Shown here piece by piece: positions 1 to 50,600 of a stretch of 64,000 nt of DNA (within the stretch, counting starts at the first letter, position 1; each line of letters opens with the position of its first letter). The stretch covers positions 2,232,001 through 2,296,000 of the forward strand of contig OU612065.1 in the NCBI GenBank assembly GCA_914767715.1. The letters are read 5' to 3'. The notes beneath the pieces are model-generated. The model had not been told where the DNA came from, made no database searches, and worked only from the letters and a program-made list of their open reading frames with translations. A program made the position numbers and the translations under genes. The DNA comes from Membranipora membranacea (taxonomy: Eukaryota; Bryozoa; Gymnolaemata; Cheilostomatida; Membraniporidae).

Positions 1-574
1 TCCCATTCCTTGGGCGTGGAAGAGCAACGAATGTGTAATCGAGGTCCTGTGGCACATTGACTCTTCTCAGTGGATGCACTGAGCCCACTGCTCCTTTTAC
101 TACATTTGCTACCGCATAAAAGGCGCAGGGGCCTTGGTGCTGACCTATCCTGCCGACTTCTTCATATAGTTCCTGCCGTCTCGAGGGTGCAAAGGTGGCT
201 AATGCACCCATATAGTGTTTGCAGACAGTTGATGCTGCGATATAAAATTCTGAATGTTCTTTGACCTCGAACAAAGCTAAAAGCTTTAAGCCCGCCCAAA
301 ACATCTGAGTGCCGTAGCATGATACTGACACAGCACGGAAAAAACAATTTCCGTCACCGTAAACTTGTACTGGGTTATAGGCCTGGAGGACATATGGAAT
401 GTGCTGGCTGAGCAGCACCATTGAGACATGGTCAATTCGCTGACTGTTGAGTGTTCCTGTAATTAAAGCAATGATATAGTCAGATATTTGATTGATTTTT
501 ATTTCTGCTGATTTTGGTGTGCAGTTTATTTTACTTTTGCAGGAATTGTAGAAGGATGTACTTTGACCAATGAA
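1..574 (-). CDS. OTU-family cysteine protease, partial (runs off left edge)
   Basis: The minus frame is open from 574 to the window edge, about 190 codons, with its first in-frame ATG at 421. It contains DGNCFFRAVS (Cys codon at 344-346), the nucleophile motif of OTU deubiquitinases, followed by a helix-rich stretch and CAFYAVANVVKGAVGSVHPL, which resembles the later core strands of OTU domains. Known for the family: the Asp and Cys of DGNC belong to the active site, and a His near the domain end completes it; that His would lie beyond the window. An acceptor-like ttaattacag sits just 5' of position 456, so 456 may be an exon start rather than 421 being the true start. OTU domains of this look also occur in repeats and transposon-linked proteins of invertebrates, so host gene versus element gene is open. 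The closing in-frame stop at 575-577 lies inside a small palindromic insertion. Confidence 0.75.
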
Positions 575-596
575 CTAAACCTGGTTTAGTTCATTG
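568..596. repeat. Tiny palindromic insertion, copy 1 (29 bp)
   Basis: The arms CAATGAACTAAACC and GGTTTAGTTCATTG are perfect inverted repeats around one base. The element is flanked on both sides by CTTTGAC (561-567 and 597-603), a perfect 7-bp direct repeat. Five further copies with the same ends and 7-bp duplications lie at 36.5-37.8 kb. Confidence 0.8.
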
Positions 597-799
597 CTTT
601 GACAATTTCAACTTTTTGGTTTGTGGATACATTTTGGCAAGAAATAAAATATTAGTTGAAAGGCCAGAAGGAAAATTAAACTTAACTTACTTTGTTAATT
701 ATAACACTTAGCGCTGACCTTATTTATCAACACAGTACTTTGCGGCAAATCAAATATGTAACAGATTTGAAAACCCTCTATTCTAAGCACTCAAATCAG

Positions 800-900
800 A
801 TGGAGTTGTGGCACTATGATAACGTAGTGCCACAACTCCATTCAATTTGGATTCTGATCGCTTAGACCAGGGAGGGTGGGATAACCCTCCCACCCTCCCT
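800..900. repeat. Two adjacent hairpins
   Basis: Positions 801-816 and 825-840 form a perfect 16-bp inverted repeat (TGGAGTTGTGGCACTA) around an 8-base loop, with weaker pairing continuing outward on both sides. Directly after it, 869-880 and 889-900 (AGGGAGGGTGGG and its complement) form a second perfect 12-bp hairpin that is G-rich on one strand. They look like the core of a degraded foldback element. The rest of 604-1228 holds no gene that I can support. Confidence 0.6.
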
Positions 901-1228
901 GCTTAGACTAGACGCAGTCCCATTCCATAAAAAAGTGTCCCAGCTTCCAACAAGATCCCTACAGTAACATGTAGATACAGTAATAATGTATCAGTCCATA
1001 GCAACTAATGTTAAATAATCAAAAGATTTCTAAGTCAACCCAATGGCATTAGCTTAGGATCCGAATCAGGTGTCACCTTCAGTCACCACTGAATCATTAT
1101 TACAACTAGCAGTGTCAATCAAATATCTGCATTATTTGTTTCAGTCAGCATTGTGGACCTGTATAGTAATTACAAGTGAACTGACCTGGTGAGATGGGTG
1201 GAAGAGTAACCCGGTAAATTTTATACAG

Positions 1229-13639: not shown

Positions 13640-16600
13640 ATGGTATCAGAAAATGACATCGATCAACTTCCACTCCTAACAGCAGATACAAGTAAGTGAA
13701 TTCTCGATTGAAAGCTAGATTGACCGGTTTTCTTCTCTGAATTTCTTCTTCCCATTTTGTTAATTTCTTTATGTCATAAATGTTCTTAATTAAACACTAG
13801 ATAGAGAACATCAAGTCATAACGGGAGACATAATTTGGCAAGATGATAGGCTTACTGAAATTGTAGTTCATTTTCTTTCAGTACTTGAACTGCTCTCTGA
13901 TAGATATGCCAATGATGAGATATACACATGGGCTTGCACTACGTTGGTTGCAGTTAATCCCTACAAGGAGTTAGAACAGCTTTACTATCAGATTGCACAG
14001 CAGAAGTTCAGTGATACACTTTCCTCAGACTCTGTGAGTAGAGAGAAATAAAAATATGAATCACAGGGAAGCTGATAAAAACAGAATACTGCTTGATATT
14101 TTCTTCTTGCTTTAGACAATAAGAGTATTATAGGTTTTATAAAACAGTTGATTGATATAAGATATATAACATGATTTATATGTTTTCAGCCTCATATATA
14201 CAGCATTGCAGAAAGTGCTATCAACATAATAAAGCAGAGTTACTCGAGAAAATGTGATGCTAGTATAATAGTTAGTGGGGAGAGTGGTGCTGGAAAGGTA
14301 GGTCACTGCTCTGCTGTTAACGTCATATATTCATTTTCTTCGTCTTACCTTTATCTTCATCCAAGTTAAACAGTTTAATGTATATGCCAATATAGGTTTA
14401 GGTTACCAACAAACTATTGAAAAATTTTAAACTTGATATTTACACGTAATCTGATCAAGACCATCGTTTCTTCCGACATACTTTATTAATACACATATTA
14501 TCCGAGTTAGTCTCAAAATACGCATGACAACAAGGGGACTATATACTTACATACATTAGAAGTAACTCTGCCCTTAGCTAACGGCAGAGTAACTTCTAAT
14601 GTATGTAAGACGGATCTAACCTGATCTTCTAAGTATCTGAAATTTAATGAACCCCTGAACTTGGTTTCTTAACCTTATTATACAAAGAAAGTCCTTAGAG
14701 TCGAAATATTAATAAAAATATTAAAAAAACAGCTAACGAGTAACAGGCTTATGCCAGTAACGTGGCAAGATATTAAATGGACATCAACACAAAAGTTGTT
14801 TTTAGAGAAATGTAATAGATCATGGGCACTGTTTAAACATGTAATAGCTATCCGAAGTTGAATAATAATTCAAACACGACAGAAGTCTCACTAGTTCCCT
14901 ATGCCTTACCCTTGGAGTTATCATTGCTGCGTATCTCATATATTCTCAATAATACACAACCACGGATACAGTAAACAAGAAGGTCTTTTTGTCTCTTGAT
15001 GATTTGCAAATAAGGGGAAACTGGGATGATGGTAATAATATTGGCCCTACGATTTTCACATTATAAAATGAACAAGATGCTGATTACCTAAATATAAATC
15101 TTTTACCTGCAGACAGAAAACACTAAGCACCTACTGCGTTACCTGACAGTAGTGAGATCACAGCACAATTATTCCAGTAAGAGAGAGCAAGCTCAACGGA
15201 TTGAAGATCATATCCTTTCCTTCAGTCCTATGCTCGAATCATTTGGTATGGATGCTTTATTCAGCTCCCTGATTTGGGGAGTTTAAAGTTCCCATCAACG
15301 CAATAATGGTTAAGCAATGACCTGCAAATTGTTTACTATGAGGTGGCTTACCAATTTCATGATCCCTCAGCAAAGAAGTACTTCGCTCCACTGATTATTA
15401 ATTTTCTAATCACAGAGGTGTCCAACTTTAGCAAATTTTCTTTTTTTTAGGGAATGCATGTACAAGTTGTAATGATAACTCATCTAGATTCGGTAAGTAT
15501 ATAGTACTACAGTATGACGAGGATCAGGTCATAGTGGGAGCTCATATTCAGACTTATCTATTAGAGAAAACTCGAGTAGTCCATCAGAGCACAGGCAACT
15601 CCAACTTCCATATATTTTATCAGGTATGTATCAGCAGACTCAATCTCATATCTGACTGTCTACACAACTCCTTGGTCCGGAGAAAATGATTGAACACAAA
15701 CAAATTAACATAAGGACTGAGGAGTGAATATAATCAAGAAGTACTCCCTGATTATATGTTTTCCTGGCCTCCGGCCACTCGGACAATATTCTTATATTCA
15801 ATCAGGTGGTTATTTATAGATTATGGTTTATAGCAGCAGGGAGGTTAGGATATACCATAAACATATAAATACAGTATACAGTATTTATATGTTTATGGGA
15901 TATACCGTCAAATCCACCTTGATAGCAGTGTGGGGAGGGTTAACAACAAATTTGGAGTTTTCTGCCCGCCAGAGTGCTAAATATATTATTTATATCTATT
16001 CATGGTGTTGTTGAGGGATCGTTAATATTGAGGTTTCTGTTAGGCCTTGATTAAATCAAGGACTCTTTCCATTGAAAATTTTGTTGAATAGGTTTAGCTC
16101 ATCATTAGTTCTATGTCGCCTGGTAACTGTCAACTACACAATTATAACAGTCATTATTTAAAATCAAACACATCCTACCTTGATCCAACCCCTTTGTAAG
16201 GGTTTGTAGCCTACAATGATATTCAGTTTTTAGACGGATTATCAGATGAAGAAAGAGGGAAGTATCTAATAAGTGACACCACATCTTATAATTATGCTCT
16301 CACTCGCAGTCCACCCGAGGCTGGTAAGTTATCTTCTGCTGCTTATTTTACAAGTCATCCATAACAACTCTTACTTGATCAACGGTTTGTTTCATAATCT
16401 GCTGGAGAGGAATTGGAGTTAAGCCTCCAAGTCTCAGAGAAACATAACAGCCCTTGTGATATTACATCAGACGAATTATCCCTTTGAATACTCGATGTTT
16501 GATGGTTGATTATGTGTCGAGTAGATACTTTGCTTACAGGATGTAAGACACGTACATGGAATAAAACACTGCTAGCATGGCAAGCTGCTGGATTTTCTGA

Positions 16601-19600: not shown

Positions 19601-22556
19601 CAATATTAAGGTGCGGCAATGGAAACACCATCCTATAACTGTTGCATTCTAAACATTCATTTAATCTTTAGTGTGTACAGTGTCACCAGCTGTATATTAT
19701 ACAGGGCCCTTTTGTTACCTAAGATTTCAAAGACTTGCTCATTTGTTATTTCATGGTTCAAATGGCTGACTTTGTAGACATTGTAGCTCAAAGTCATTGA
19801 TGACAAACGTTGAAATCCTCAAACTTACCTGTTCTTACCCCTCCATTTATTTCTATTTTACAGAATGAAATATGAGGATTTTTTTTCACTATACTCCGTC
19901 CTGCATAGTAGACAGTCACAATTCAAACTAGCTGACAAAGAGAATGACCTCGGTGTCACATCTACCCCGCTCACACCTCGTCAACGCAGGAGAACGTTAC
20001 TCCCTGTAGCTGATATCAACCAATCCCCTTCTATATTTATATCTGATTCTGGGATTCAAAATAAACAGACCACGCCCGGTATGTGGGAAGGCAGCCACAA
20101 TCGATCTGTTGCATTTTTCAACAAAGATTGGCTCAAAAAATCTTTTCTACTCACTCCATTCATTTTTCCTTGTCCAGCCATTAAACTCTTGTTTTGGCTT
20201 GGCTCATGAGATAAATGACTGGCATTCAATGATTCTGTCATTTCAAGAAAAGCGTTATCAGTTTAAGCCAGTTAGCAATTTAAATCTTTTGAACAAACTT
20301 GAACATTATCGGTTTTATGAACTTTGATGCATGTGTAGTTGATTGTGGAATCAGTATAGTGCATACATAGCGCCATATTTTGTGATTAATATTAGAAAAG
20401 ATAACCTCCCACTCAGTCTTAGTATGAATATGTGACCACTGAACAAAGCTGGCTTGACTACCAGAGTATGCCTCTTATCTTAAACCTCTTAATATGTTTC
20501 TTGAATTTTTGTGCGTCAAAAATACTACCAAGCATTGTCATTGAGAAGAATTTCTCATGATGGAGTCATTTTTATTTAATTTCTAGTGAAGAGTCATGCC
20601 AAGAGAAGCGTTACCAGCTTACTGAGGCATCTGCTTGGGCCATCTATGAGTAAATCTGTAAACTTTGGTACTACGAAACTTTTCATCAAGTCACAAGAGA
20701 CGGTCAGTTTACTCATATCTCAGGCTGAATATTAATCCTTCTGTGATCGTATCTTCATATTTACTCTTTTGACAAATTGATGTATACATTTTGTAGCTGT
20801 AGCTCAGTAACACTAGTTGATTCACATGGTTATCATGGTTAGTCACTCTGACTGACACATATTATTTTACAGCTTGATTATCTAGAAAGCGAAAAGAAGA
20901 AAAAGCTGAGTAGCTCAGCGTTCACCATACAATGTCTGTGGAGGAAGTACTCTACTATCAAAAACAAACAAATACAAAATCACGCAGCATCTGTCATAAC
21001 CCGGGGTAGGGATAACACTCTCCTTATTCTTTGTTTTAGTTCTTGAAAAAGTTTTGTCAAGACAGAAATTAAAAGTTTGAATATTTTATAAGGCACAAGT
21101 TTAATAATAATTGTCTAGACGACATTAAAGGCTGACAGTGATTATAATATTGTTTGGTTTACAAGCTGTGAGACAATGTAGAGACAGATTGGTGAAGCGC
21201 CGGACTGAAGTGCATAGATTAGCAGAGAGCAAACTGAGCACTGGAGACGACGATCCACTCAGAAATGTGACAGTCAGGCGGAGAAAGGCTATACACATAG
21301 AGGTCAAAGGTTAGTACACCAGAGTGATGTGTCAGCTATGTGTGCCCTTATACTACCAACATATGTAAGTACATCAGATAGTATAACAGAAAATATATCA
21401 GTGTGTATATAATTTGAACTATATATTATAGAGCATAAAGAAATGTTTTTGTGAGACCACACCGGAATTTATCTTTTTTTTTAATTAATCTACCTCAAAA
21501 TATTAATAATAACTGATAATCAAAAAGAGTAAGGGTTCGTCATCAATGTTTACTGTATGAGTAACGCTGATGTATCATGTGATCCCGTAGCTGATATTAA
21601 GTAATTATAGTTACATGGTTAATCTCCTGCCTAATCTCCTACCTAATCTCCTACCAGTCCAAAAGTCACATGACAGTACGTCACTAAGGTATAACTCATC
21701 ATCAGTAAGGGTTACCCTTGTTACTATGTATAGATTCAGTGGAAAGTGCTTTGTATCCCATTATATATTATCTCCTGATAAGCGATCTTAAGCCGGAATT
21801 AGAGTGATAACAGCCCGCCAAAGCTTAAGATAGCCATCCCTGATGAACAAATACCACACATTCCACATGTCCCACAAAATAAACGATGTAACTTCTACTT
21901 TAACCCCTGCCTTCCGATGAGTCTGTGTCAAGGACTCTCCCGAGTGGATGTTATGAAATTTTATTCCCATTTTAGACTATGGTGACAAAGTCCAATTATG
22001 GTCAGGGAGCCCCCATATACAAGATGATGTCACGTCTCAAATATCTCAAATCCACAGAAACAATATACACAGAAAGAATGGGATCATCTCAATACGTCAT
22101 ATCAGTAATGTATGAACTTTAATACGGTTATGTTCTTTTGTAATAAGAAAGTGAATTTGGTCTGATTTGTTCAACTAACTTGTTGGCATTTAATCAACAC
22201 TCTAAGCGTGTAAGGTGTTTTAAGATTTTCCAGCATATATGGTATATCCAGTTACTTTGTGAGATAATGAGACAAAACTCAATTATCAGTTAATCCAATA
22301 TCCTCTTTTCAAGGTTTTTTCTGTGTGGCCTGGGTCAGCTACTTTATGAATTGTGCCTTGCATCCAGCCAGCATGTTCACATGCGTATACGTATAACCTA
22401 TATGTTTGATAGATTGTTTTACAGACACGAGTGATATTTCACGTAAAGATGTCCAGCATGTTGAGGTACAGTCACATATACTCACAATCACATGTGAGCC
22501 ACAGTTTACTGGACTGTCTCGAGGATAGAGAGAAGTATATACGATCAGGGTTTTGA
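13640..22556 (+). CDS. MYO19: Unconventional myosin, class XIX
   Basis: Exons: 13640-13691, 13801-14033, 14190-14297, 15113-15245, 15451-15627, 16210-16323, 16540-16625, 16970-17045, 17169-17358, 17558-17625, 18000-18235, 18438-18617, 18997-19128, 19281-19459, 19864-20078, 20587-20702, 20873-21005, 21166-21309, 21976-22109, 22425-22556. All phases fit and give 945 aa (vertebrate MYO19 is about 970). Motor landmarks: P-loop GESGAGKT (125-132, split by an intron), switch [10 protein letters not shown] (183-191), switch [10 protein letters not shown] (416-423), actin-contact VRCIKPN (613-619), SH1 [10 protein letters not shown] (636-645), and an IQ motif near 784. [29 protein letters not shown] and [14 protein letters not shown] follow MYO19 closely. 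The family is an actin motor on the mitochondrial outer membrane, with a short basic tail after the IQ region. The exon 5 donor at 15628 (gtatca) is needed because the nearer gtatgt breaks the frame. The last two tail exons are the least certain. Confidence 0.9.
14546..14609. repeat. Hairpin in MYO19 intron 3
   Basis: The 27-base arms 14546-14572 and 14583-14609 are complementary with one mismatch near the middle, around a 10-base loop. The outer sequence is CTTACATACATTAGAAG. Probably a small foldback element; the intron (14298-15112) holds nothing else that I can name. Confidence 0.65.
15855..15898. repeat. Hairpin in MYO19 intron 5
   Basis: A perfect 18-bp inverted repeat, CCATAAACATATAAATAC at 15855-15872 and its complement at 15881-15898, around 8 bases. 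GATATA flanks both sides. Confidence 0.65.
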
Positions 22557-25610: not shown

Positions 25611-28400
25611 ATGGTGTTCAACAAAAACTTCTCAAGCATTCTGCTGGTGATTCTTTTCACTCAGGTAACTAAATTATTTTTAACTGAAATTTGTGTTATG
25701 TTGGGGCTGTTTTAAAACCCTCACTGAGCGGCTGTCCAACGTCAATTAGGCTTGAAATACATTTCTATGTTTTTTCCTCACAGATAATTTGTGGTGAAGA
25801 CTATTTTAGCATACTTTGTGTACGGCTTGGTTTGTCAAAAGCAAAAATTGTATCAAAAGAAAAATATTTTTCATAATTTGTCTTTATAGAAAAGTTGTAG
25901 ACAAATTAAATGTGCATGAATAATCCACTTTACATGTCTATTTAGTCCAACCTTATCCCACCCTTGTATTGGAAGATATACAACTTACTTACTTATTACA
26001 CTGTGATTACAACTAAGTTACATAAATTATTTGTGGAAAAAATCTTGCGCAAATCTGCAAATTTTGATCATTCATTTATTCCAACGTGTAATGCTCATCC
26101 GTGCATCGCCTGAAATGTTTGTTGTATTTTACAGGTATACTCTCAGTCAACACGAAAACCATGCATAGAATCCGTACCGGACTCTTCTCAGTGCGCAGAA
26201 TACACAGACAGCTGTACTGATCCCGATCGCCTGGCCGTGTGCCAAAGATATTGTGGAGTATGTGAGGATCTCCAGGCCACCACAGTCGCTGGACAGGAGT
26301 GTAAAGATGGAAGTCTATTGTGTACTATAAGGGCTGCCTCTAACTCTACATTTTGTGACTCAGGTTTTAACAGAGATAGGTGTAGAAAAACATGTGGTGT
26401 TTGTGGTGTTACCACAGCGTCAACCTCTACTAGAACACCACCAAAAGCCACCCCAGTACCAACCACCACCCCAGTACCAACCACCACCCCAGTACCAACC
26501 ACCACCCCAGAACCAACCACCACCCCAGAACCAACCACCACCCTAGAACCTACCACCACGCCAAAACCATCCACCACGCCAAAACCATCCACCACGCCAA
26601 AACCAACCACCACGCCAAAACCAACCACCACACCCAAACCAACCACCACGCCAATACCAACCACCACGCCAAAACCAACCACCACGCCAAAACCAACCAC
26701 CACGCCAAAACCAACCACCACACCAAAACCAACCACCACACCAATACCAACCACCACGCCAAAACCAATCACCACGCCAAAACCAACCACCATGCCAAAA
26801 CCAACCACCACGCCAAAACCAACCACCACACCAAAACCAACCACCACACCAAAACCAACAACTACACCAAAACTGACCACCACACCAAAGCCAACGACTA
26901 CAGGAACAGAGGCAACTACTGCTATCTCTACTTCTTCCGAACTCCTCAATGCCGGTAACTATAATAAGACGAACATGTAATTTTTTTTAAACATGTGCTT
27001 GTATGGCATCATCTCAATATCTTAAATGGATACTGAGCAATAATTCTCATAATTCTCATGTTGTCGACTCGTTTTGGCACGAACAAACTTGAAACATTAA
27101 ATGCAGCATATCATTTCAACTCGTTATTTTTAGTTCGTATCAGGATGATAAACGGCACTTTGCTGGAGATAAAACTGACAATGGACGGCTATGTGTTTGA
27201 TGATAAGTTCGACGATATCATAGGTGAAGTAAAGAAAGTCATGGAGGAGTTCCCTAAAAAAGTAACTAAGGTTGAGAGCATTGATGTGGAGGATGGTATT
27301 ACTGAAAGGTATGTTATACAACAATATTCTTGACAATGCAGGAAAACCCACCAATTTCTTAAGATTTATAAGATACTTTTATGGATCAGATTAATGATGG
27401 TGTTGTGTATTTGGTACAAAATACTCATCAAGCTAGGGACATCGACATGCTCATATCAAGCTCACATAAAATTGTTTCTTTTTCATCTTGTCTTTAATGA
27501 TGTTTATATTGTTATTCAGTAACAAAAAGGTGACCATACTAACTGTATACGCCCATGTGCCTGTCGGAGCCAAAAACATAGAAAAGGACTTCAACTCAGA
27601 CAACAGTTTCAGACTTGGACTAGATAAATCTCTGAATGATAAGAACATGGATTCATACTATGGTTTAAATAATGAGAACCTTGTAGAGTCCCAGGCACAA
27701 ACATCAGCACAAAAAACTGAGGTAAAACCATTCATTCTCTGTTTTTGGTAGACCCCTTCAGGATACTGTAGTAAGATTTTATCTCAAGGCATATTGGTTT
27801 CATAAACAATAATGAACCGCAGTGCTAATTGTATTACCCAAATAATATTGGTTTCACATATTGTAATGTAAAAAAAAAACCATAAAACTTGCACAGCTCT
27901 CACTGTAACCTCTTATTGAGCACAGACCCTTATTTTGAGTCCTATATAATATAAGCGTAACTGGATTTTAATTTTTTGCTGTCTTCATTTTGTAGTCGGA
28001 TAATTGGAGTATCAATAACTGGTATGTTATATTTGCAATCTGTGTGGGATTGTTACTTATCATAGGTCTGATCGTTCTAGCTGCTTCCGCTTCTGCAAGG
28101 TAAGAAGATATACTTGCTTGCTTTAATAATTGGTCAAAAGATCTGCTCACGTGTTTTTAATCTCATGCTATCTTAGTTTTGTTGAGCTATAATAAAAATA
28201 TGAAAATAAGTCAAATTATCACAACCATCATCCTTTGGTTTTATTATTATATGCCATCAGTATTCATTCACAATATTCGGGCATATTTGTCCTTTGAATC
28301 TAACTTAGCTCAACATTAATTGTACATCAATATCTGTTTTAGTCGGAAGAAGCAGAAAGTTATTCTACAAGAGAAGAAGTTAGCTTACTCAAAAGTGTGA
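25611..28400 (+). CDS. Membrane-anchored ShK-domain, Thr/Pro-rich protein
   Basis: Exons 25611-25664, 26135-26954, 27134-27308, 27520-27721, 27996-28099 and 28343-28400 give 470 aa with consistent phases. Exon 1 encodes a signal peptide (MVFNKNFSSILLVILFTQ). Two ShKT domains follow, six Cys each: C28, 38, 45, 54, 58, 61 and C74, 81, 92, 101, 105, 108. Next comes a stalk of 26 six-residue repeats of the TPKPTT type, a likely O-glycosylated mucin-like region. A domain of roughly 120 residues follows (ITER and VTILTVYAHVPVG inside) that I do not recognise; its alternating strands and helices would suit a SEA-like fold. A transmembrane helix lies at about 427-450 and a basic 19-residue tail ends in SKV. 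ShK domains occur in potassium-channel toxins but also in many secreted proteases and surface proteins; the membrane anchor favours a surface role here. Confidence 0.8.
26450..26905 (+). repeat. Coding 18-bp minisatellite
   Basis: Twenty-six tandem units of about CCAAAACCAACCACCACG encode the Thr/Pro stalk. Variants cluster: the first units carry Val, then Glu, then Lys at the third residue, and isolated Ile, Met and Leu changes mark later units, so the array grew by unequal exchange after the first units diverged. Confidence 0.9.
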
Positions 28401-36306: not shown

Positions 36307-36537
36307 ATCGTATATGTAATCACTCTGACCAGTGAACCATGAGTGAACTAAGCTACGATCTGTCCAACTGAGCCGAATAGTTTTGCTCCTTTTCGGTGGT
36401 CTCTGATCTTATCAGTTCTAGTTATAATTATTCCATAAAAAATAATCTAGGAAAATTGCACATAACACAACCTTCGTCAAGGCTGTTCAAAAATGAGCTG
36501 ATGCTTGCATTTTCTGCAGCACTTTATATAGTCACAG

Positions 36538-36560
36538 CGATGAGGAGAGGCAGTTCATTG
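36538..36560. repeat. Tiny palindromic insertion, copy 2 (23 bp)
   Basis: Ends CGATGA and GTTCATTG, flanked by GTCACAG at 36531-36537 and 36561-36567. Confidence 0.7.
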
Positions 36561-36798
36561 GTCACAGCAGGTATCGTTTCCTAATCGAACTAATAGGTCC
36601 GTTTAAATGTTGACATTATTGCAACATTTTCTTTGTTACCACTTACAATGGTCTTGTCATCTTTCTGAAGAGTTCTAGAACATTCTTAAAGAGTTCTCGC
36701 ACATTCTTATACTGGTGTAACTATCTTTTGATCATCCTGCTGTTTTGATTTATCAATAGCATCCGCATAGATTGATCTTATTCAGAGCATCGCTTGAC

Positions 36799-36817
36799 CA
36801 ATGTTCATTGTTCATTG
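36799..36817. repeat. Tiny palindromic insertion, copy 3 (19 bp)
   Basis: CAATGTTCATTGTTCATTG flanked by GCTTGAC at 36792-36798 and 36818-36824. This is the shortest copy; its interior looks rearranged. Confidence 0.65.
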
Positions 36818-37082
36818 GCTTGACAATGGGGATGAGTATCCATTAAAATGAAATCAAAAATCCCAAGTCCAAATCAAGCACTTGAATATCTAAAGTCTAA
36901 AACTCAAAAATATAAAATTATAAAATAATCTCAAGTTAATTAGAAAAGTAAGGCAGCATCAGCTAAAAGTAGTAAAACATCATAATATAAAAATTCATAT
37001 CAATGTATTAGTTATCATTATGTATGGTATTTATGTGCAAATATAGAAATCATGCAACTTGTGATTGAACTAACTGTGCTAG

Positions 37083-37108
37083 CAATGAACTAAAGGTTTA
37101 GTTCATTG
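37083..37108. repeat. Tiny palindromic insertion, copy 4 (26 bp)
   Basis: CAATGAACTAAA, GG, then TTTAGTTCATTG: perfect 12-base arms. Flanked by GTGCTAG at 37076-37082 and 37109-37115. Confidence 0.8.
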
Positions 37109-37368
37109 GTGCTAGTAATGGTCTGAGCATGGTATCTATCTGGGAACTCATGAAACACTTGTGCATGACTAATGCTCAATAAATGATAAGAGTGTGCTAA
37201 CATAATTGCCTTATAGATCTAATAATGTGGCCAATAGGACAATGGATGTTAGGTAGTACCCTTGCCTAGGGTACATCCAGACCGACTTGGTGGTTGATGG
37301 TTTGAGGTGTGTAAAAGGTGTGGCCAAAATATGGCATTGTAATTGGTCGAATCTTATTGATTGGCCAA

Positions 37369-37380
37369 TCATATCATAGT
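37369..37380 (+). promoter_or_regulatory. Palindromic CCAAT site, possible GPCPD1 promoter
   Basis: GATTGGCCAATC is a double CCAAT box of the kind bound by NF-Y. About 160 bases downstream a stretch ends at a strong donor (AAG|gtgagt, exon end 37538), which could be a 5' untranslated exon spliced to the acceptor tttttcag before 38537, just upstream of the GPCPD1 start at 38562. The link is inferred. Confidence 0.35.
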
Positions 37381-37707
37381 ACTTATGTAAATAAATGAAG
37401 CAACGAGTAGTTGTTCAGTTTATCAGAAGACTTGTGAACTCGACTGTTCGACTCAAGAGCTGAGCTCACAACTGACTTTGAACTATATTGTTTTACAAAG
37501 TTCAGCTGAGCAGTCTTACACCTGAAGCAGTTTACAAGGTGAGTATGTGAGCTATTTAAGGTGTTTGTTTTGGTTATGAACTGATAATATGCTACTGAAA
37601 ATCTCAGTGAACTAGTAACTACTAGACTTTGCTCCTTGCATGGTCTGTGTTGGGTTTGTTTGGTCACCAAACAGAGCCAACATATATCTAAGCTGGTATA
37701 GTTTCAG

Positions 37708-37732
37708 CGATGAACTTCCTCTCAGTTCATTG
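37708..37732. repeat. Tiny palindromic insertion, copy 5 (25 bp)
   Basis: Arms CGATGAACT and AGTTCATTG around TCCTCTC, flanked by GTTTCAG at 37701-37707 and 37733-37739. Confidence 0.75.
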
Positions 37733-37800
37733 GTTTCAGCACCGAATTTTCATCATGACTATGGAAACTTGGTTTCTCATAAATTCGTTAATCGTACCAG

Positions 37801-37826
37801 CAATGAACTAAACCTTTAGTTCATTG
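37801..37826. repeat. Tiny palindromic insertion, copy 6 (26 bp)
   Basis: CAATGAACTAAA, CC, then TTTAGTTCATTG: the same arms as copy 4 with the centre complemented, as if inverted. Flanked by GTACCAG at 37794-37800 and 37827-37833. Confidence 0.8.
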
Positions 37827-38561
37827 GTACCAGGTCAATAATCAATAATGCCAATTTTAGTGGGGATCAGTGGGTGGATGGGTGGGTGGGGTTCCTACCC
37901 AACAGCCAATAAGAGCCAACAGTGGGAGGGAGACCATTGATTTGTACCATGATGAGTAGAGTTTCCAGCACCAGCGTCTGCTGTGACTTGAGAAACTGTT
38001 TTTCTCGTATGTCGTTTAACAATTCCGATCAGCTCAACAATTTTGATAATTGAACAGCTTTTGGGGGTTATACACACGGGGACAAGAAGTGGGCTCCCAG
38101 TGGGTAGGGCGTTCCAGTCCTTGGCAGTACGGATGAAAAACGATCTCTGGTAGTGGAGGGTGTTTGACGTAGGTATAAAGTACTGCTCCGCATGTCTCCT
38201 AGCTGATCACTGACTTTCAGGGGTAAGGGAAAGTTGAAAGGGGTTAACGGCACTCAAAGTTTGTTTGCAGACTCCAGTCTGAGTACTTGCTCCCTGAGTG
38301 ATGTCAGCCTATGAAAGTTTTTCTGTCTGGTATGTGCAGTATCCAATGTTGGCTAAGGTGCAGTGTTACCCAATTGAGAGTTACCAACACATTAGAATGA
38401 ACTCTCTACCTATCCTCTAATCTTTCCTGACAAGCTGTTTTGCTGTAGTAAATATGTAATTCTCTAACCGTATCATCCCTTGATTGTAGGAGAACCCGGT
38501 AGTTACATTGGCTTGGAATTTGTGTGCCTTTTTTCAGTTTTTCAACCAAATAACAGACCTG

Positions 38562-41500
38562 ATGAGTGCTACGATAACGATCACCCTGCAAGTGCAAATA
38601 TCCACACAGAAGAGTGACAAGGTAGCTGTCACAGGATCTCACAAAGTGCTCGGCGAATGGGACCCTGAAAAAGTGCGATTTCTGAAGCCAAAAAAATCAC
38701 AAAATGAAAGGTATGATTACTTGCCACAATCCAGTTGTTCTATGTGCAAAGCAGTTCTATGAAGATGAGCCATTAACACACGCATAGCACCGGAATTATT
38801 CCGCGGAAGCGAATTGTATCAAGAAAGAAACAACTATCGGTACAAAGGTGACAATTTGGGTCATTGTCATAACATTGAGCTGAATTATAACATTAGAAAT
38901 GTTATGGTTACAGCGATATTTGGCACACTAAAGTTGATCTGCCTCTGTCATGTGATGGACTTGAGTATCGGTATCTGGTATGCAGAAAGTCAGCACACGA
39001 AGGAAACGAAGATGAGGATTATCTTATAAGGCATTGGGAGTCGGGGATTATGCCAAGATACAAGAAAATCATCGGTACGCTCATGTGGTCCTCTTTTGTT
39101 ATCTTTGTGTGTGTACAGGAACTCATGCCATGGATAACACACATTTTTTGTAGTTCTGAGCTGCTGGGTGCTGGCGTTGAGAAACCACTTATTAGCCTCC
39201 AATAGTTTCATAACAGCACTTATTACATCAGATGTTACACACACAGAGAAATTAAGCCAGCCCATAAACTTTATATTAAGGATTTGAACTGCTGATTCTT
39301 GATGTGATGAGAACATTTTTGGATGATGTAACTAAGGATTTTGGTTGTCATAACATATTTAAAATCAAATCGAAAATCATGTGTTGACCTTTGTACCTTC
39401 TATGTTCATCACTGAGCTGGTATATCATATTATGTTATATTGTGAATTTATGTTGGTAGAATTGGGCTCCAACCCTGTAGTGGATGTATATGGCCAGTTT
39501 GAACCTGGTAGGAAGATGTTCGTTGATAGAGGATGGCTCATAAATGAAACTGAAATACAGATCAGATTTTATAAGGACCCTATACACATGTTCAAGGTAT
39601 TTACATTTACCAAATACTTTTTATACTTCCACAATCTTTATTACAACCGCCTGCCCGGGTCATAAAGTTGCATACTTTAGCAAACCAGTTTAATCCAGTT
39701 AGAATAAATAATTAGGCCCATGGGTATGAGGCTGATGTAAGGGCAGTTTTCTGATGGTACTCCTAATCACGGCAGTACCAAAGCACTATATTATTGCTAC
39801 TTGTTCTTAATAATACTAAAATATGCTGTAGTGACAGATTAGGTAATATCAATAATAGTGGTCATCACAGATATGTACGTCATAGTTAGTCAATAATTGT
39901 CAACAAAATTGGATGTGCACTGTGACTCCTCTTTGATTCTGAACAGTGAACCGCCCCCTGTATATATTATGATCTTTCCTTATAGAAGCAGGACCGATAC
40001 TCAGACTATTATGTAAAATGTTCGGCGGTTAATCTTCTACACAATGATTTCTCTGGACCAGAGACTGTGTCTAATAAAACCCACAGTATGGACGACTACT
40101 TCGAGCAGATAATTCACTCCAGTAACCCACTTATTCGTGTCACAGTGAGTTCAAACGACTTTTTTTTTCGCTGTTCCTTGTCATTTGTACCTGTGTGCAA
40201 CACCTTGCATGTTAAGGTATGCAGCAAAAAAGTGTGTGGTTATTAAAGGTGAGTGGTTATAAAACATCACCTGGTTAAGTCATGTAACCTCAAGATGACC
40301 ATAAAATGTGTATAAAATATAAAGTATTTCTTCAGGATGTCAATGTAAGGACTGTCTTAGATCCATTTTGATCCAATTGCCTGCATTCCCTTTGCTCCCT
40401 TCAAGCGTGGCGTGACCAGTGGAGGGGAAGCAGCTCCAAATGCAGGCAAATGGACCAATAATCCCATCTCACATACCGAAAGGAGCAGTTTCTTCTCTTT
40501 GATTCGGTACATATGAGCCTGTCTCTGACTGACTAGCAACACATTGATTCATGTTTAAAAAATATCAATAACTCGCACTCAGGGATATCTGCAAGCGCAA
40601 ATATTTATGGATTGAAAACCTTCCAACATTGCAAACGGTAAAATGATGCAGTGCGCTCTCTGCAGCATTCGACTGACAGTCTGTTGCTGTGATTGCCCAA
40701 TATTCTCATTACAGTCACTGGGTAAATACAGTAACAAGATTCAGGCAGCGTGTGGAATGTCAGTTGGCAGCACAGATTATGTAATATACAAATTACGTAC
40801 TTTTGAGCCTGATAGCCATGTAAGTATACTTTTATGATAATTAGTGCGTCAAATGCAGCTAATAACCTTATATTTACTTACTCATATCCTCCATTTTGCT
40901 TTTAGAACAGCTCATACAGTGACTAGATGTTAAATCGTTCCATAAAAAAACGTTATTATTATAATAATTCTCGCATGTTTTACTTGCCATCATCAGTGTA
41001 CTTGTTTTGTTGGTGACAGGGTATAAAGGTGGATTTCTTCAGACCATCTTTAGATGGACGATGCGATCCTCAGACACTGGGGTATACTAACCTGTTACCT
41101 CTCCACCTGGAGAGCGGGTCTGGTGTAGTGGTGCTAGCTGTCAATAACAGTCATGGCTTTCCAATCGGACAAGTGACAGGTAAGCTGCCTATATCACATT
41201 CATACTCAGCTCACCTGTCTCTGTGACCGACTGATTGGTACATTTTCTTTTAGCAGTCAATGTGAATAACCTGGCTAATCGATGAATTGAAATAAGTTAC
41301 CTCATTATCATTTTCATTTTTGTGTGTCTGTAATTTGTGACCCACTACTGTAATTTTTTGTAGTTCGATACCTTGTGTGCAAGCCTAACAAGATTATCAA
41401 GTGCGATTTGAGCAGATCATTCACTAAATGGTGGAATCAGGAGAGGCCTACCCTGGATATAGGTCACAGAGGTCTCGGTGATACGCACTCATCGGATATT

Positions 41501-44500
41501 AACTCCACGGAAGCGTAAGATTATCTGCTCAAACATTAAATTTTCTTCTCAATAAACTCTATTTTTGACCTTGACGATGCGAAATAAGATAAAACCAATA
41601 TAAACATAGATCATGAATTGTGTTACTCATGTCAGTGGCTATCTTTGGCAACGAAACAATGAATGTCTATCTAAAAGAATGAAATACCATGTATGTCATG
41701 TTAGTATGTGATGTATGTCACATTGATTAATGTCCTGATAACTTGGCATCTGAATGTGGATAATCTGGTGAGAACCTGGGACATTGAGAAACATGGCGGA
41801 ACACAAAAAATAACAGCTGACTCATGATATTAATATTATTATAAATATGCCATATCATATCATATAAGCTTGTGATTACAGATCTGTAAGAGATAGAGCA
41901 CATGAGAATACACTGGGATCTCTGATGACTGCAGCAGGAGCAGTAAGTTATAAGTAAATCTCGCTGACAAGATACTGGCCATTGTGTTGGTTCCGGCCAA
42001 TCAGAGGCAACACATTGGCTAACCTAAAACCACTAATTTAAAATGGGTTATTTCAAAAATAAAAGACGAAGACAATTGCTGGTAAATGGTGCGTATGTCT
42101 CAGTAAAGGCTTAAAAAAATTCTTGTCTTAGATAATTCTGTTTTTGTGTTGAATATTTTTATGTGGAAGAAGCGAGACCGTATCATGATATACTTTGTTG
42201 GTTTTTTCCTGTAGGCAGATTTTGTGGAGTTTGATGTGATGCTGAGCAAAGACAAAGTGCCGATTATATGGCATGATTTCAAAGTCTCTATTTTGTTACG
42301 TAAAAAAACAAGAGGTCATCATAGAGTGCACCATATCCCAGTGCACGAGCTCACGGTGTCTCAGCTGCAGGATCTACGAGTCGATTTCGCCAAGGAGAAT
42401 TCCCAGCCTGACCACATAGATCACTCTGAGTCTATCGATGAATCAACGACAGTGTAAGTATAATTTGTTATAATTTATCAATATTAGATCGCAGTCCTTC
42501 TCACCTGCTGTAGTAAAAAGAAAACAGTCATGACCATGATTCACTTTCATGCATCCTGTGCTTCGGGCTTTGTCTGAACTTAAAACGATAACAATGAGAT
42601 GCTTCACAATCACTTGAGATATAATAACACCACGAGCAAAATCTGACTGCTTCAAGAACAACTTCACTGTTATCCTACTTCCTGTTTGAATTATATGTCG
42701 GACAGTAGCATCAATGTAATATATTTCCAGCGATCACCGCTTGTCCCCCTTCCCTACACTCAAAGAGGCACTGGAGGTGGTCGATGATTGTGTAGGTTTC
42801 TATGTTGAGCTCAAATACCCTCAGACTTTATATGTAAGTAAATGGTGTCAGCTGTTAACTCAGCTATACAATTTTGAGAAAATGGGCCACACCCATTTCA
42901 GATAAAGGTTTGACCTGTGTGGCAGACATGTGGTGAAACGCCTGTTTGATGCCGGATATAATGTGGAATGTGTATTGAAGAATGATCTAAATTTTAAATC
43001 TATGATATTTTTCCTCCACTACACAGCCAATATGCACAGTTTTGTTTGTTCTTTTGAAGGAGACAGCAGTCAAGGAAGACGAGATAGAATCATATATTGA
43101 AAGGAATGCTTTTCTTGATGCTATTCTCGAAGTTTTGATCAAGAACTCCAGGCATAGGAGGATTGTGCTCGCATCATTCGACCCCGATGTCTGTATTATG
43201 TAAGTATTAACTGACACTAGATATGATCATTGCAAGATGAGTAGCTGATGTTGTGCAGAACTATAATTTGATTCGGCTGGCTTATTTTATGAAACTCTGA
43301 ATTGTATGTCTACAGAAAGAACCCAATGCACAATTATATTCTATACAGAGCGGCCACGATTATAAGTATTGTTTTCAATTTATGGATTGCTATGTACAGC
43401 TCATCTAAGCAATGACTTGCATAGTCACAGTATGGCTAGTCCAGTGCACAGTAGTACAGCTTGACTTGATGAAGTGATGTTCTATGGTTTTATTGTTCTC
43501 ATTGTATCACTGCAGGCTTATAGGGTATTTTTGAGTTTCATAATGGTACAGAGCAAAGTTTACCTCTCCTACATTTGATGTGCCTCTTACTCCTAATTTG
43601 CCTAAAAACAGCTGCACCATTCCTCTGTGTGATGGAGCTTAGCCTTTAAAATATCACAGTGTCAAGACCAAAGCTTCCCTATTGTACTGTAATAAACAAT
43701 CAGTATAATATCATGAGTCGTTCTCTCTTTGTCATGGTGTGGGCAACTCCACATGTATGATACCACTCAATATTACCAAATTAAGTTTCAACGCATTGTA
43801 AATGTATCGTTTTCAATAGGGCAAGGCTGAAGCAGAACCTGTGGCCAGTGATAATGCTCATCGAGGATAACGGAGTTAGCACAAAGCCATATTACCGTGA
43901 CCTCAGGACACACAGAATACCCACCGCCATATCTCTGGCAAAGAGCGAGAAATTTCTGGTACATGGTAACATATGTCATTATATCAATATATAATTATAA
44001 TAACAGGTTTGCTAAAAGATTGCAAGAATCAAATCAAGAAAACTTATCATTTCATTCGAGCAAACAATTGGAATATCATCCCTCATGCTCAATGTATCAC
44101 CAAATCATATGTCATCCGCTTCAACTCCAAAGCTGCATTTTTTACTGCCAATTGGCTGGACAGACAATCAATTGGACCAACTTCATATTTTCAAATTTTT
44201 GTACATATTCTCATCTACATAGATGAGATATAATCGAATGCATCCATGAATGTAAGGTTATTCATATAGAGGGTTAATCCTTGTCCGTCTAACTTATTGG
44301 CAGCATATATTCAGCTTGATCATAGTAGATACTCCTAGATCTAGATCATAGTGCACAATACTGGGTTTCTCTACAGGGCTTATCTGTGAATGCTGCATCA
44401 CTGATGAGATCAGAGGAAGATCTCCTAGATAAGATCCTCTCTAACAACCTCATATGCTTTGTGTGGGGGCCGGACGCCAACAATGCTCAAGTGAGGCAGA

Positions 44501-47650: not shown

Positions 47651-50600
47651 TTAATTCACGACTTTCAATACTTTTCCAACAGCAATAGTTTTTCCTACAA
47701 AGAGACAAGAAAACAAGTTACAAGTTCATCCAGCTGCCAGGAAGTCGCATATGAGGAAAACAAGCACCCGATGAGTTTTCGCTCTTGTTACCTTTTATTT
47801 GTATTTTTATTTTGATGAGCACAAGGCAGAGAATGAAACTACTTTCTACAGCTAGAACACTCAACACAGGAACTGATGATCTGACATTGATCTGATTGGC
47901 TGTCCCTATTGGCATGAATAATAACATAGCCTGGAAAATGGTCTTGGTTTCAAAATTGCAAAAGGTAATAAATTGCCTTCAGCGTCGATGATATGGACTA
48001 GCTAGCTGTTTCTGAAGGTCCTTTGTTGGTCAAAAGAGAGCTTATTATGCTATTCCAAATATGGTGTATAATGGTACAAGGTGACTAAAACCCAGATATC
48101 ATACACGAGCTTGGAGTCTGTATACGACTGATGAAGCACTGACATATCCATTATAACCAGTATACTATAATGACCTACCTTCGTCTCGTAATGTGAATCT
48201 TCCCATCTGGGGGAAATCTTTGAATGTTTCTAGACAAACTGAACCGCCCACCACTTCTAATCTCACAATGGCTATCTGATCTTGCTTAATGAATCTTGGT
48301 TTAGGAGTTTTCTCTCCTGTTTTCTTGTCAACCAGTGCTATCAAATTCTAAAAATAAAAGTAAGACCTCTAAAACTGGATAGTAGCCAAGCATTCAACAC
48401 ATGTCCAGGTATGCTGTGGAGTTCATTATTAGGCTCAATACTCAAGAAAGGTAATTTTACTACTGTCCAACCCTCCAGAACCTTATGGATTTATAAGTTA
48501 TACTTATTTACAGGTAGAGATAGTAGAATAAGTACATGAGGACTTGTGGGTCAGGTAATCCTTTGATATTGTGTTGAAGAAGAAGAAGACAAACCTTGAG
48601 TGTACACTCTTCTTCACATGTGTGTATGTGTAATATGGCGCTGTATCCGGCGCATATAATAGATTTATGTTCTAATATTACTATCTGCAACAAAATATAA
48701 ACATTTTGCCAAGCGTTTTTCAAACAAAATAGGATCAGTTCATGGAGGATTTCAATATTTTGTTCTGTTCTCTCAACTTCTCCCAGAGAACTATGAGACA
48801 GAACATATGTAAATGTTACATCACTAGTCAGATACAATATGCTGCCATAAAAACTGCTCTCCCTGTTCAAAGTTACTGGTGGTGAAGCCACAAGATAAAT
48901 TACCTGAGCGTCAAAGACATGTGACGTTCTGACGAGACTCTCCGGAGAGCATATTACAAATCCTCCCTGTATATCCTCCTCTTCTGTGTTCTTCAGTTTA
49001 AGTTTGACATTCTCACCAGTGTTAGCTAATTCTGTTTCTATCTCATCTGACCATAGACTCATTATCTCTACTTCTTTCTGTATAAGAGCAGCAATGTGTA
49101 TATATATGTATTTATATAAATATCAGGGCATGTTAATCACTAGAAATATGAACATAGGCAAACCTGCTGAGCTCAGCAATGCAAGATGGTATAAAATAAA
49201 GACTACCAACAATCAATTAAGTGCCATTTATCAAGTCACCGTATATATATATATATATATATATATACCCTATTTGGCATCAGGACTAGTTTCTGCCCCA
49301 CGTAGACTTGTCCTGATTCCACTTTGCCTAGAGCTATAGTTCCCATGTCTTTATATCTGTCGACCACGGGTATCCTGACTGGTCCTTCTGACTGGCGGAC
49401 AAATGATGGTAATCCTTCTACATAGTCTAAGAATGTAGGTCCTCTACAATATATAATATAAATATATTATATTGAACCACAGATGAGTGTTACACACATG
49501 AACATAATAAATACTTAGTATGTTTGTAATTGGTTATTAAGTATGTAGAAAGCCTTAATTTTCTTTTCACAAACAAACTCAGGTACGCCATTAAAATGAT
49601 CAACCCAGCAGTAATACTTTCATAATTTTTCTACTTCTCAGCTATATTGAGATCCTAAGCTAAAAATTCGAAGCACCTTTCTGTCCTAGCTGCGCATAAT
49701 TGTGTTAACTGACATTCTGTTCACAGGAGCCAATATGCAAGCTTCAGATATATAATACAGGACGACTTACTTGTACCATGGGCAAACTTTAGAAGCATTC
49801 TCAGGTGCATCCTTAATGAAAGCTCCAGTCAGACCAGAACAAGGTATAAACTCTACCTCTGCCTTCACATTATAGCCCAACTTTTTCAGGTACGGAGTGA
49901 GTTTGTCTTTGCACTCTTTGTACCTGTTCACAGATAAAAATCAGGTTTGAATAATCAAAAATATAACTTTAACATACACGAAGAAACTGAAGTAGACATT
50001 CTCGATATCAAAATATAAACTGTCACTGTCTACTAGAATACATAGAGATCAAACCCTAATCCACATTGACAATGCTTGAGCTGGCAATGCTGGGTAGTAC
50101 CAACTAAAAATATAAAAATGGAACAGGGCCAGCCAAGAGGTCTGTTCTGTTACTTACCGAGTCTCATTCCACTCAACTGTTGGATCATCCATCTTGTTTA
50201 TTAATACTACCAATTTTTTGACACCGGCCGTTTTGACCAACATAGCGTGCTCCCTAGTTTGACCTCGCCTCTCAAATCCAGTTTCAAACTCTCCTTTTCT
50301 GGCTGATATAACCTTAAAAAATACAACCGGGAAATGAATAGAGCATTTGTGCTGTATAGCTGAAATGGCATCAAACTGTCCAAGAAAAATCGAAATGGAG
50401 CATCATAATATTTCAATGTTCAAAATATCCTAGGGTTACCAACTCATCAGGTATGAGAAAGTTCAGCATGACCTGTATCAGGATATCACTGGCATACATG
50501 TTTAATTAAAGATTATATGTGGATAACATCCAGTCTGTCCTTTCTTAACTGACAATTATACCTTTTTTTCTGTTTAAGATTCCGAATGGAAAACAATCGA

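Follow-up and report, generated by a model that had tools for sequence, protein, structure and literature searches.

Short palindromes between 7-bp repeats in Membranipora membranacea are probably excision footprints of a P-like transposon

Short palindromic inserts, each lying between two exact copies of a 7-bp sequence, are found in a 64,000-nucleotide stretch of the Membranipora membranacea genome (contig OU612065.1, positions 2,232,001 to 2,296,000; hereafter the window), and they raise the question whether units of this size are mobile themselves or are what a larger element left behind. We argue that the palindromes are excision scars of a larger transposon which duplicates 7 bp of its target, most likely a member of the P superfamily, and that they are not ultra-short mobile elements; we give this reading a probability of about 0.88.

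Palindromic inserts in the window and their 7-bp flanks

All six inserts of the original prediction, together with their six perfect 7-bp repeats, are present in the window letter for letter, and no strand is assigned to any of them. The first footprint (561..603) consists of a 29-bp insert (568-596) between two copies of CTTTGAC, with arms of 15 and 14 nt that belong to terminal inverted repeat (TIR) A. In the second (36531..36567), GTCACAG flanks a 23-bp insert (36538-36560) in which the TIR variant CRATGAACTKCCTCTCC can be read by eye, its left arm short and its right arm longer, while the fifth (37701..37739), a 25-bp insert (37708-37732) within GTTTCAG, has by eye a long left and a short right arm of the same variant. 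The third (36792..36824) is a 19-bp insert (36799-36817) within GCTTGAC, made of the arms and a repeated TTCATTG filler. The fourth (37076..37115; 26-bp insert 37083-37108 within GTGCTAG; arms 12 and 15) and the sixth (37794..37833; 26-bp insert 37801-37826 within GTACCAG; arms 15 and 12) each show 1-nt microhomology, and their inserts are exact reverse complements. The claim that these two copies are one sequence in opposite orientations is thus correct, and that of insertion in both orientations holds in the sense that the longer arm may stay at either TIR. A left arm of the form C[A/G]ATGA had been described for the whole set; it is seen in five of the six copies, the insert at 36799-36817 starting with CAATGT instead.

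Just downstream of the five-scar cluster, at 38490-42454, lie plus-strand ORFs with domain matches, that at 38490-38759 to the starch-binding CBM_20 domain and that at 42215-42454 to a glycerophosphodiester phosphodiesterase. The two may be parts of one gene, of the GPCPD1 type, and the cluster may lie near the promoter of this gene. Elsewhere in the window, an ORF at 26114-26977 has a ShK-like domain and then a long, mucin-like, Thr/Pro-rich TTPKPT repeat.

The window was compared with 40 dinucleotide shuffles, in which we counted inserts of 8-45 bp that start with C, end with G, have at least five of six inverted terminal bases and are flanked by exact 7-mers; as the flank test is symmetric, the reversed sequence is of no use as a control. 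Eight matches were found in the window against a mean of 0.275 and a maximum of 2 in the shuffles. They comprise the six inserts described above, one at 14568-14587, which lies within a larger palindrome and is probably no scar, and one at 868-901. The latter, a 34-bp insert (CAGGGAGGGTGGGATAACCCTCCCACCCTCCCTG) within CTTAGAC, is a footprint of a second TIR family (861..908; no strand assigned; TIR CAGGGAGGGTGGGA...) which was absent from the original prediction and has arms unrelated to those of the other six; it can alternatively be read as a 33-bp insert with an 8-bp flank match (GCTTAGAC).

We then turn to a 190-kb sample of the same chromosome, picked by position only, in which we collected inserts of 15-61 bp that start with CA, end with TG and have six or more of seven terminal bases inverted. 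Exact flank matches of 0 to 6 bp were seen at 736, 252, 91, 22, 3, 2 and 0 inserts, respectively, after which the count rose in a spike, 10 inserts having a match of exactly 7 bp and a single one a match of 8 bp. These 11 inserts carry 11 different flanks, one of the ten 7-bp flanks being the simple repeat CACACAC. The shuffles and this spike together uphold the view that the flanking 7-mers are beyond chance. A looser test, covering the sample together with the window and four loci (the window and these loci having been pre-picked for the feature), gave 28 inserts with an exact 7-mer at offset 0 against 0-3 when the left flank was displaced. The excess is smaller when inverted ends are not demanded, with 25 CA...TG inserts having an abutting exact 7-mer in the 190 kb against 3-10 with displaced flanks. 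The ends found among the inserts are of several types (CAATGAAC, CAAGGAGT, CAAGGATTT, CAGGGAG and CACAGAGTAAGGAT); the 7-bp flank belongs to a class of inserts and not to a single family, and other TIR families leave the same kind of scar.

The genome-wide scan for the palindrome that the original prediction had put forward gave a clear excess, CRATGA-N(3-20)-TCATTG having 6240 forward and 6244 reverse matches in the 339-Mb genome against 882 and 895 for the reversed pattern, where the 6240 and 6244 matches are places and not events, part of them being amplified repeats. Extrapolated from one region and a small count, the 11 inserts per 190 kb would amount to ~58 per Mb, or near 20,000 scars in 339 Mb. 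Palindromes of other origin do occur in the window, such as that at 800-841, which has 17-bp arms (ATGGAGTTGTGGCACTA...TAGTGCCACAACTCCAT) and no exact flanking repeat, but tandem duplication or chance hairpins without any insertion are ruled out as the source of the footprints by the shuffles, the displaced-flank control and the spike at exactly 7 bp, and the existence of a parent element that shares their ends speaks against it too.

Resident elements, truncated ends and junctions

With a 17-mer of TIR subfamily B, which starts CAATGAACTCCCTCTTC, we fetched 20 loci, picked partly for two copies lying close together. Short inserts with exact 7-bp flanks were present at 12 of the 20 (the repeat of L058 being displaced by 5 nt) and short inserts without an exact flank match at three (L060, L066 and L068); at three more loci (L051, L053 and L063) there are resident ends with flanks that do not match exactly, and two have long elements with exact 7-bp flanks, namely L050 (892 bp, ATTGGCT) and L052 (1590 bp, CAGTCGT). 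We rejected L052 as a simple 1590-bp element, for it is a composite with a third TIR inside and pieces in both orientations.

L050 has the same ends as the scars. Its 33-bp TIR, CAATGAACTCCCTCTTCCTCAGGAATAACAACA, which is common to the resident B elements, stands at both ends, and the whole element lies within its exact 7-bp duplication. When L050 was used as the query, 115 matches were listed from the best 40 of 154 candidate places, a good many covering no more than a TIR; at least 24 of the 115, its own place included, span all 892 bases, nearly all besides L050 itself at 92-97% identity. The ends of ten further copies of ~886 bp were fetched and exact 7-bp flanks were found in all ten, none of which extend to 8. 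In one pair among them the flanks are reverse complements of each other; this pair probably stems from duplication of a single locus, leaving ~9 independent copies. No coding sequence was seen in L050 by inspection, and the ~886-bp resident elements have the characters of MITEs, being short, noncoding by inspection, homogeneous and multi-copy, with TIRs and a target duplication. Larger elements that share the ends of the scars and duplicate 7 bp, as the original prediction had envisaged, are thus found in this genome.

Places with an exact TIR B prefix number 889 at 17 nt, 165 at 20 nt, 88 at 22 nt and 63 at 33 nt, while the reversed pattern gave none at any of these lengths. This drop in the counts implies that the junctions retain at most ~20 nt of each B end, and that most of the ends which keep 17 nt diverge from the element, the loss falling before 22 nt. 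Truncated B ends exceed intact ones several-fold; their ratio is at most 826 to 63, since mutated resident ends are dropped and scars within amplified repeats are counted repeatedly. Among the matches listed, one 20-nt arm directly adjoins another in at least three places (C1:24798695-24798734, C1:26119194-26119233 and C5:10763587-10763626). A common limit of 17 nt for the arms of every family was rejected, B arms of 18-20 nt having been found. Where TTCCTC is followed by the AGGAAG of the other arm, the two may imitate the TIR, which would give seeming matches of 21-25 nt such as that in L059.

The 17-mer of subfamily A (CAATGAACTAAACCTCA) occurs at 87 + 78 places in the genome. The flanking 7-mer was present at 16 of 20 A loci (displaced by 5 nt in L039, and with L029 and L042 being copies of one repeat), and the exact flank test fails at four of the 20. 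The A arms reach the full 17 nt of the query, and the sequence that follows differs between loci; an intact subfamily A element was not seen among the 100 of 165 17-mer places listed and the 20 loci read.

The junctions of 41 distinct inserts fall into 15 that share 1-3 nt, 7 direct joins and 19 with filler, counts which are skewed because most loci were selected for a full 17-nt arm. Some of the filler repeats the arms, as in L001 (17 + ATGAA + 17) and L032. Both ends had to match TIR A or B, by which the window's two CG-starting copies were excluded, and a few rows, among them L044, L058 and L068, allow more than one reading and are doubtful. The flanking 7-mers vary from site to site. In 59 of 82 symmetrised targets, T occupies position 2 and A position 6, and T is seen only once at position 1; the palindromic preference is weak.

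These data bear on the possibility that the 19-34-bp palindromes are themselves mobile, as two fused TIRs which are moved by a transposase making 7-bp staggered cuts. The 20-bp form CAATGAACTAAACCTCATTG does recur with distinct 7-mers, and the 26-bp form of the fourth and sixth inserts recurs elsewhere in the genome among the matches listed, which would suit such a mobile unit. But recurring forms are expected from shared microhomology as well, the inserts comprise many sequences which vary at the joint, and full-length elements with 33-bp TIRs exist; the inserts would also lack the internal transposase-binding sites that P elements carry (PMC7776569). We consider mobile palindromes very improbable, and the ultra-short non-autonomous elements of the original prediction are not borne out, there being no single unit sequence. 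Its other suggestion, excision footprints, and its P-like lead are both supported by the full-length elements, which share these ends and duplicate 7 bp, and by inserts that vary as truncated TIR prefixes with filler or microhomology, as expected of end joining.

P-type transposases and the source of the footprints

At least 134 matches to PF21787 were obtained in this genome, 150 of 211 candidates having been scored, against none in 14 control genomes. ORFs of the genome carry PF21787, PF21788 and PF12017 (P RNase H and, in some, GTP-binding and HTH domains), and that of L071 also has a THAP domain, PF05485. The Drosophila P transposase structure 6p5a is matched by the L025 ORF at 3.2e-38 and by the L071 ORF at 5.4e-17. 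Two P elements, L026 (C2:20.17 Mb, 5972 bp) and L027 (C2:0.14 Mb, 4933 bp), are flanked by 8-bp duplications and have TIRs that start with CATAG (CATAGAGTTATCCCCC / CATAGACCTACTAATAATAAACC), and other PF21787 matches with the same scores suggest near-identical copies. A TIR pair was not found at the P loci L025/L028, L069, L070 and L071; the L025/L028 repeat has one clear end, ...CTCTG (right end CAGAGCTAATATATCAATAGAG), and no matching left end. In the window itself, which has 120 ORFs of at least 70 aa, no P transposase was found among 10 ORF stretches scanned. A 42-bp palindrome at 15848-15905 of the window (CATAAACATATAAATAC...GTATTTATATGTTTATG) has an exact 8-bp flanking repeat, GGATATAC; this scar may have been left by a P element which, like L026 and L027, duplicates 8 bp, if it is a scar at all.

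No PF21787 match was seen within 10 kb of any of the 63 exact TIR 33-mer places when these were compared by eye with the 134 matches, and no transposase lay between CAATGAAC-type ends in the loci read. The footprints could accordingly belong to a superfamily other than P, with an undescribed transposase that duplicates 7 bp and also cuts well inside its TIRs; the lack of a P transposase linked to these 7-bp elements in the loci read speaks for this, as do the 8-bp duplications of the resolved P elements of this genome and the retained ends, which reach ~20 nt and not 17. Against it, we know of no other superfamily which leaves such long TIR stubs, and P transposases are numerous in the genome. 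Moreover, Galileo, itself of the P superfamily, duplicates 7 bp at a palindromic target, and 33-bp TIRs with CA...TG termini resemble those of P elements, which are of 27-31 bp in Anopheles. We regard a source outside the P superfamily as rather unlikely.

A P-superfamily transposase of the 7-bp-duplicating sort, like Galileo, would most likely be responsible. A target duplication of 7 bp, where 7 or 8 bp is expected of the superfamily, was found in 10 of 10 resident copies; and the TIR is of about 30 bp and starts with CA (33 bp at both L050 ends). TIR stubs, such as cleavage well inside the TIR may leave, are present with a bound of ~20 nt in B, near but not equal to the 17 nt of P, and with up to 17 nt of known sequence in A. 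According to the excision-footprint reading, a cut-and-paste transposon whose TIR starts CAATGAAC would insert and create the 7-bp duplication, as observed around resident elements. Its transposase would later excise the element by cutting one strand ~17-20 nt inside the TIR, and the donor ends would keep single-stranded TIR tails, to judge from the reach of the retained arms. Host end joining would trim these tails, anneal microhomologies or copy short fillers, and seal the break, in line with the junction shapes observed; the joining enzyme may perhaps be polymerase theta, which the junction shape and the analogy with Drosophila suggest. The product would be a target copy, a left TIR stub, a right TIR stub and a second target copy.

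A close likeness is with the Drosophila P element. Cleavage by its transposase lies 17 bp within the TIR and yields 17-nt 3' extensions (PMC7776569), and its excision products, as described in PMC2895639, show an 8-bp target copy, a truncated TIR of at most 17 nt, microhomology or templated filler, a second such TIR and a target copy. The order of parts is the same here, but those products come from laboratory assays with an 8-bp target and 17-nt tails, whereas the present scars have a 7-bp target, B arms of ~20 nt and are natural copies found genome-wide. Galileo of Drosophila shares with our elements the 7-bp duplications, which are mostly of that length (8 bp in three copies) and lie at a palindromic target with the consensus GTANTAC/GTATTAC (PMC4168063 and PMC2775673); it differs in its long TIRs, the elements here having 33-bp TIRs and no linked transposase in the loci read. 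The P elements of Anopheles have TIRs of 27-31 bp and 8-bp duplications, and the P-MITEs of Anopheles gambiae are like our elements in their ~30-bp P-like TIRs, unrelated middle and many copies, but duplicate 8 bp and not 7, and the accessible text makes no mention of a footprint record (PMC1562414). Zebrafish Pdre2/THAP9 offers a P-type transposase that was shown to excise its own element in cells; its TIRs are however of 13 bp with 8-bp duplications, and in fly cells Pdre2's own transposase gave larger flanking deletions, in contrast to the tidy scars here (PMC10983969). A genome-wide study of DNA-transposon activity in Asian and African rice is similar in mentioning excision footprints and different in that it concerns plants and compares two species (PMC4423477). 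The Dada superfamily, as summarised in PMC3706591, inserts target-specifically into multicopy small RNA genes.

Amplified and nested scars as a record of excision and repair

Not all of the places counted are independent events, because one repeat can multiply the same footprint. A 281-base repeat at L029:1000-1280 (C2:7593999-7594279) carries an A-type scar, and among the best 40 of 351 candidates at least 31 are copies of its full length, with identities of 96-100%; the excision thus seems older than the spread of the repeat. Of the 100 A 17-mer places listed, 17 fall in copies of this repeat with the same footprint. Seven same-strand A places at C3:18945700-19382625, of which one locus, L030, was read, may be another duplicated set. 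For 58 footprints, no empty allele was found within the sequences analysed, where each footprint was met at its own locus or in co-amplified copies bearing the insert and nowhere else, and no L029-repeat copy of insert-lacking length was present among the best 40 of 351 candidates; the 31 copies show amplification of one scar and not an empty site.

Scars of different families may also be nested, each with its own 7-bp repeat. At positions 48782-48859 of the joined sample L006-L024, GTAGAAG-CAGGGAGGGTGGGAT...-GTAGAAG encloses GTGGGAT-CAAGGAGTTG...-GTGGGAT, and such nested footprints allow relative ages to be read.

Whether the scars represent a new P-like 7-bp branch which cuts ~20 nt inside its ends, and whether the ~20,000 of them, those of relatives included, form an archive of thousands of repairs, with some parents perhaps gone, are matters on which we see the odds as evenly balanced. 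In the literature as represented by titles and the beginnings of abstracts, a coverage beyond which most subscription papers fall, we met no comparable record across a genome for P-like elements. On the present reading, every scar would be the outcome of end joining at a break of known position, and the collection would double as a natural repair assay. If the reading is right, transposon activity which is nearly invisible to ordinary annotation, its remnant being ~20-40 bp, would become countable and could be grouped by family, and the cut position of a transposase and its target preference would be readable from fossils alone.
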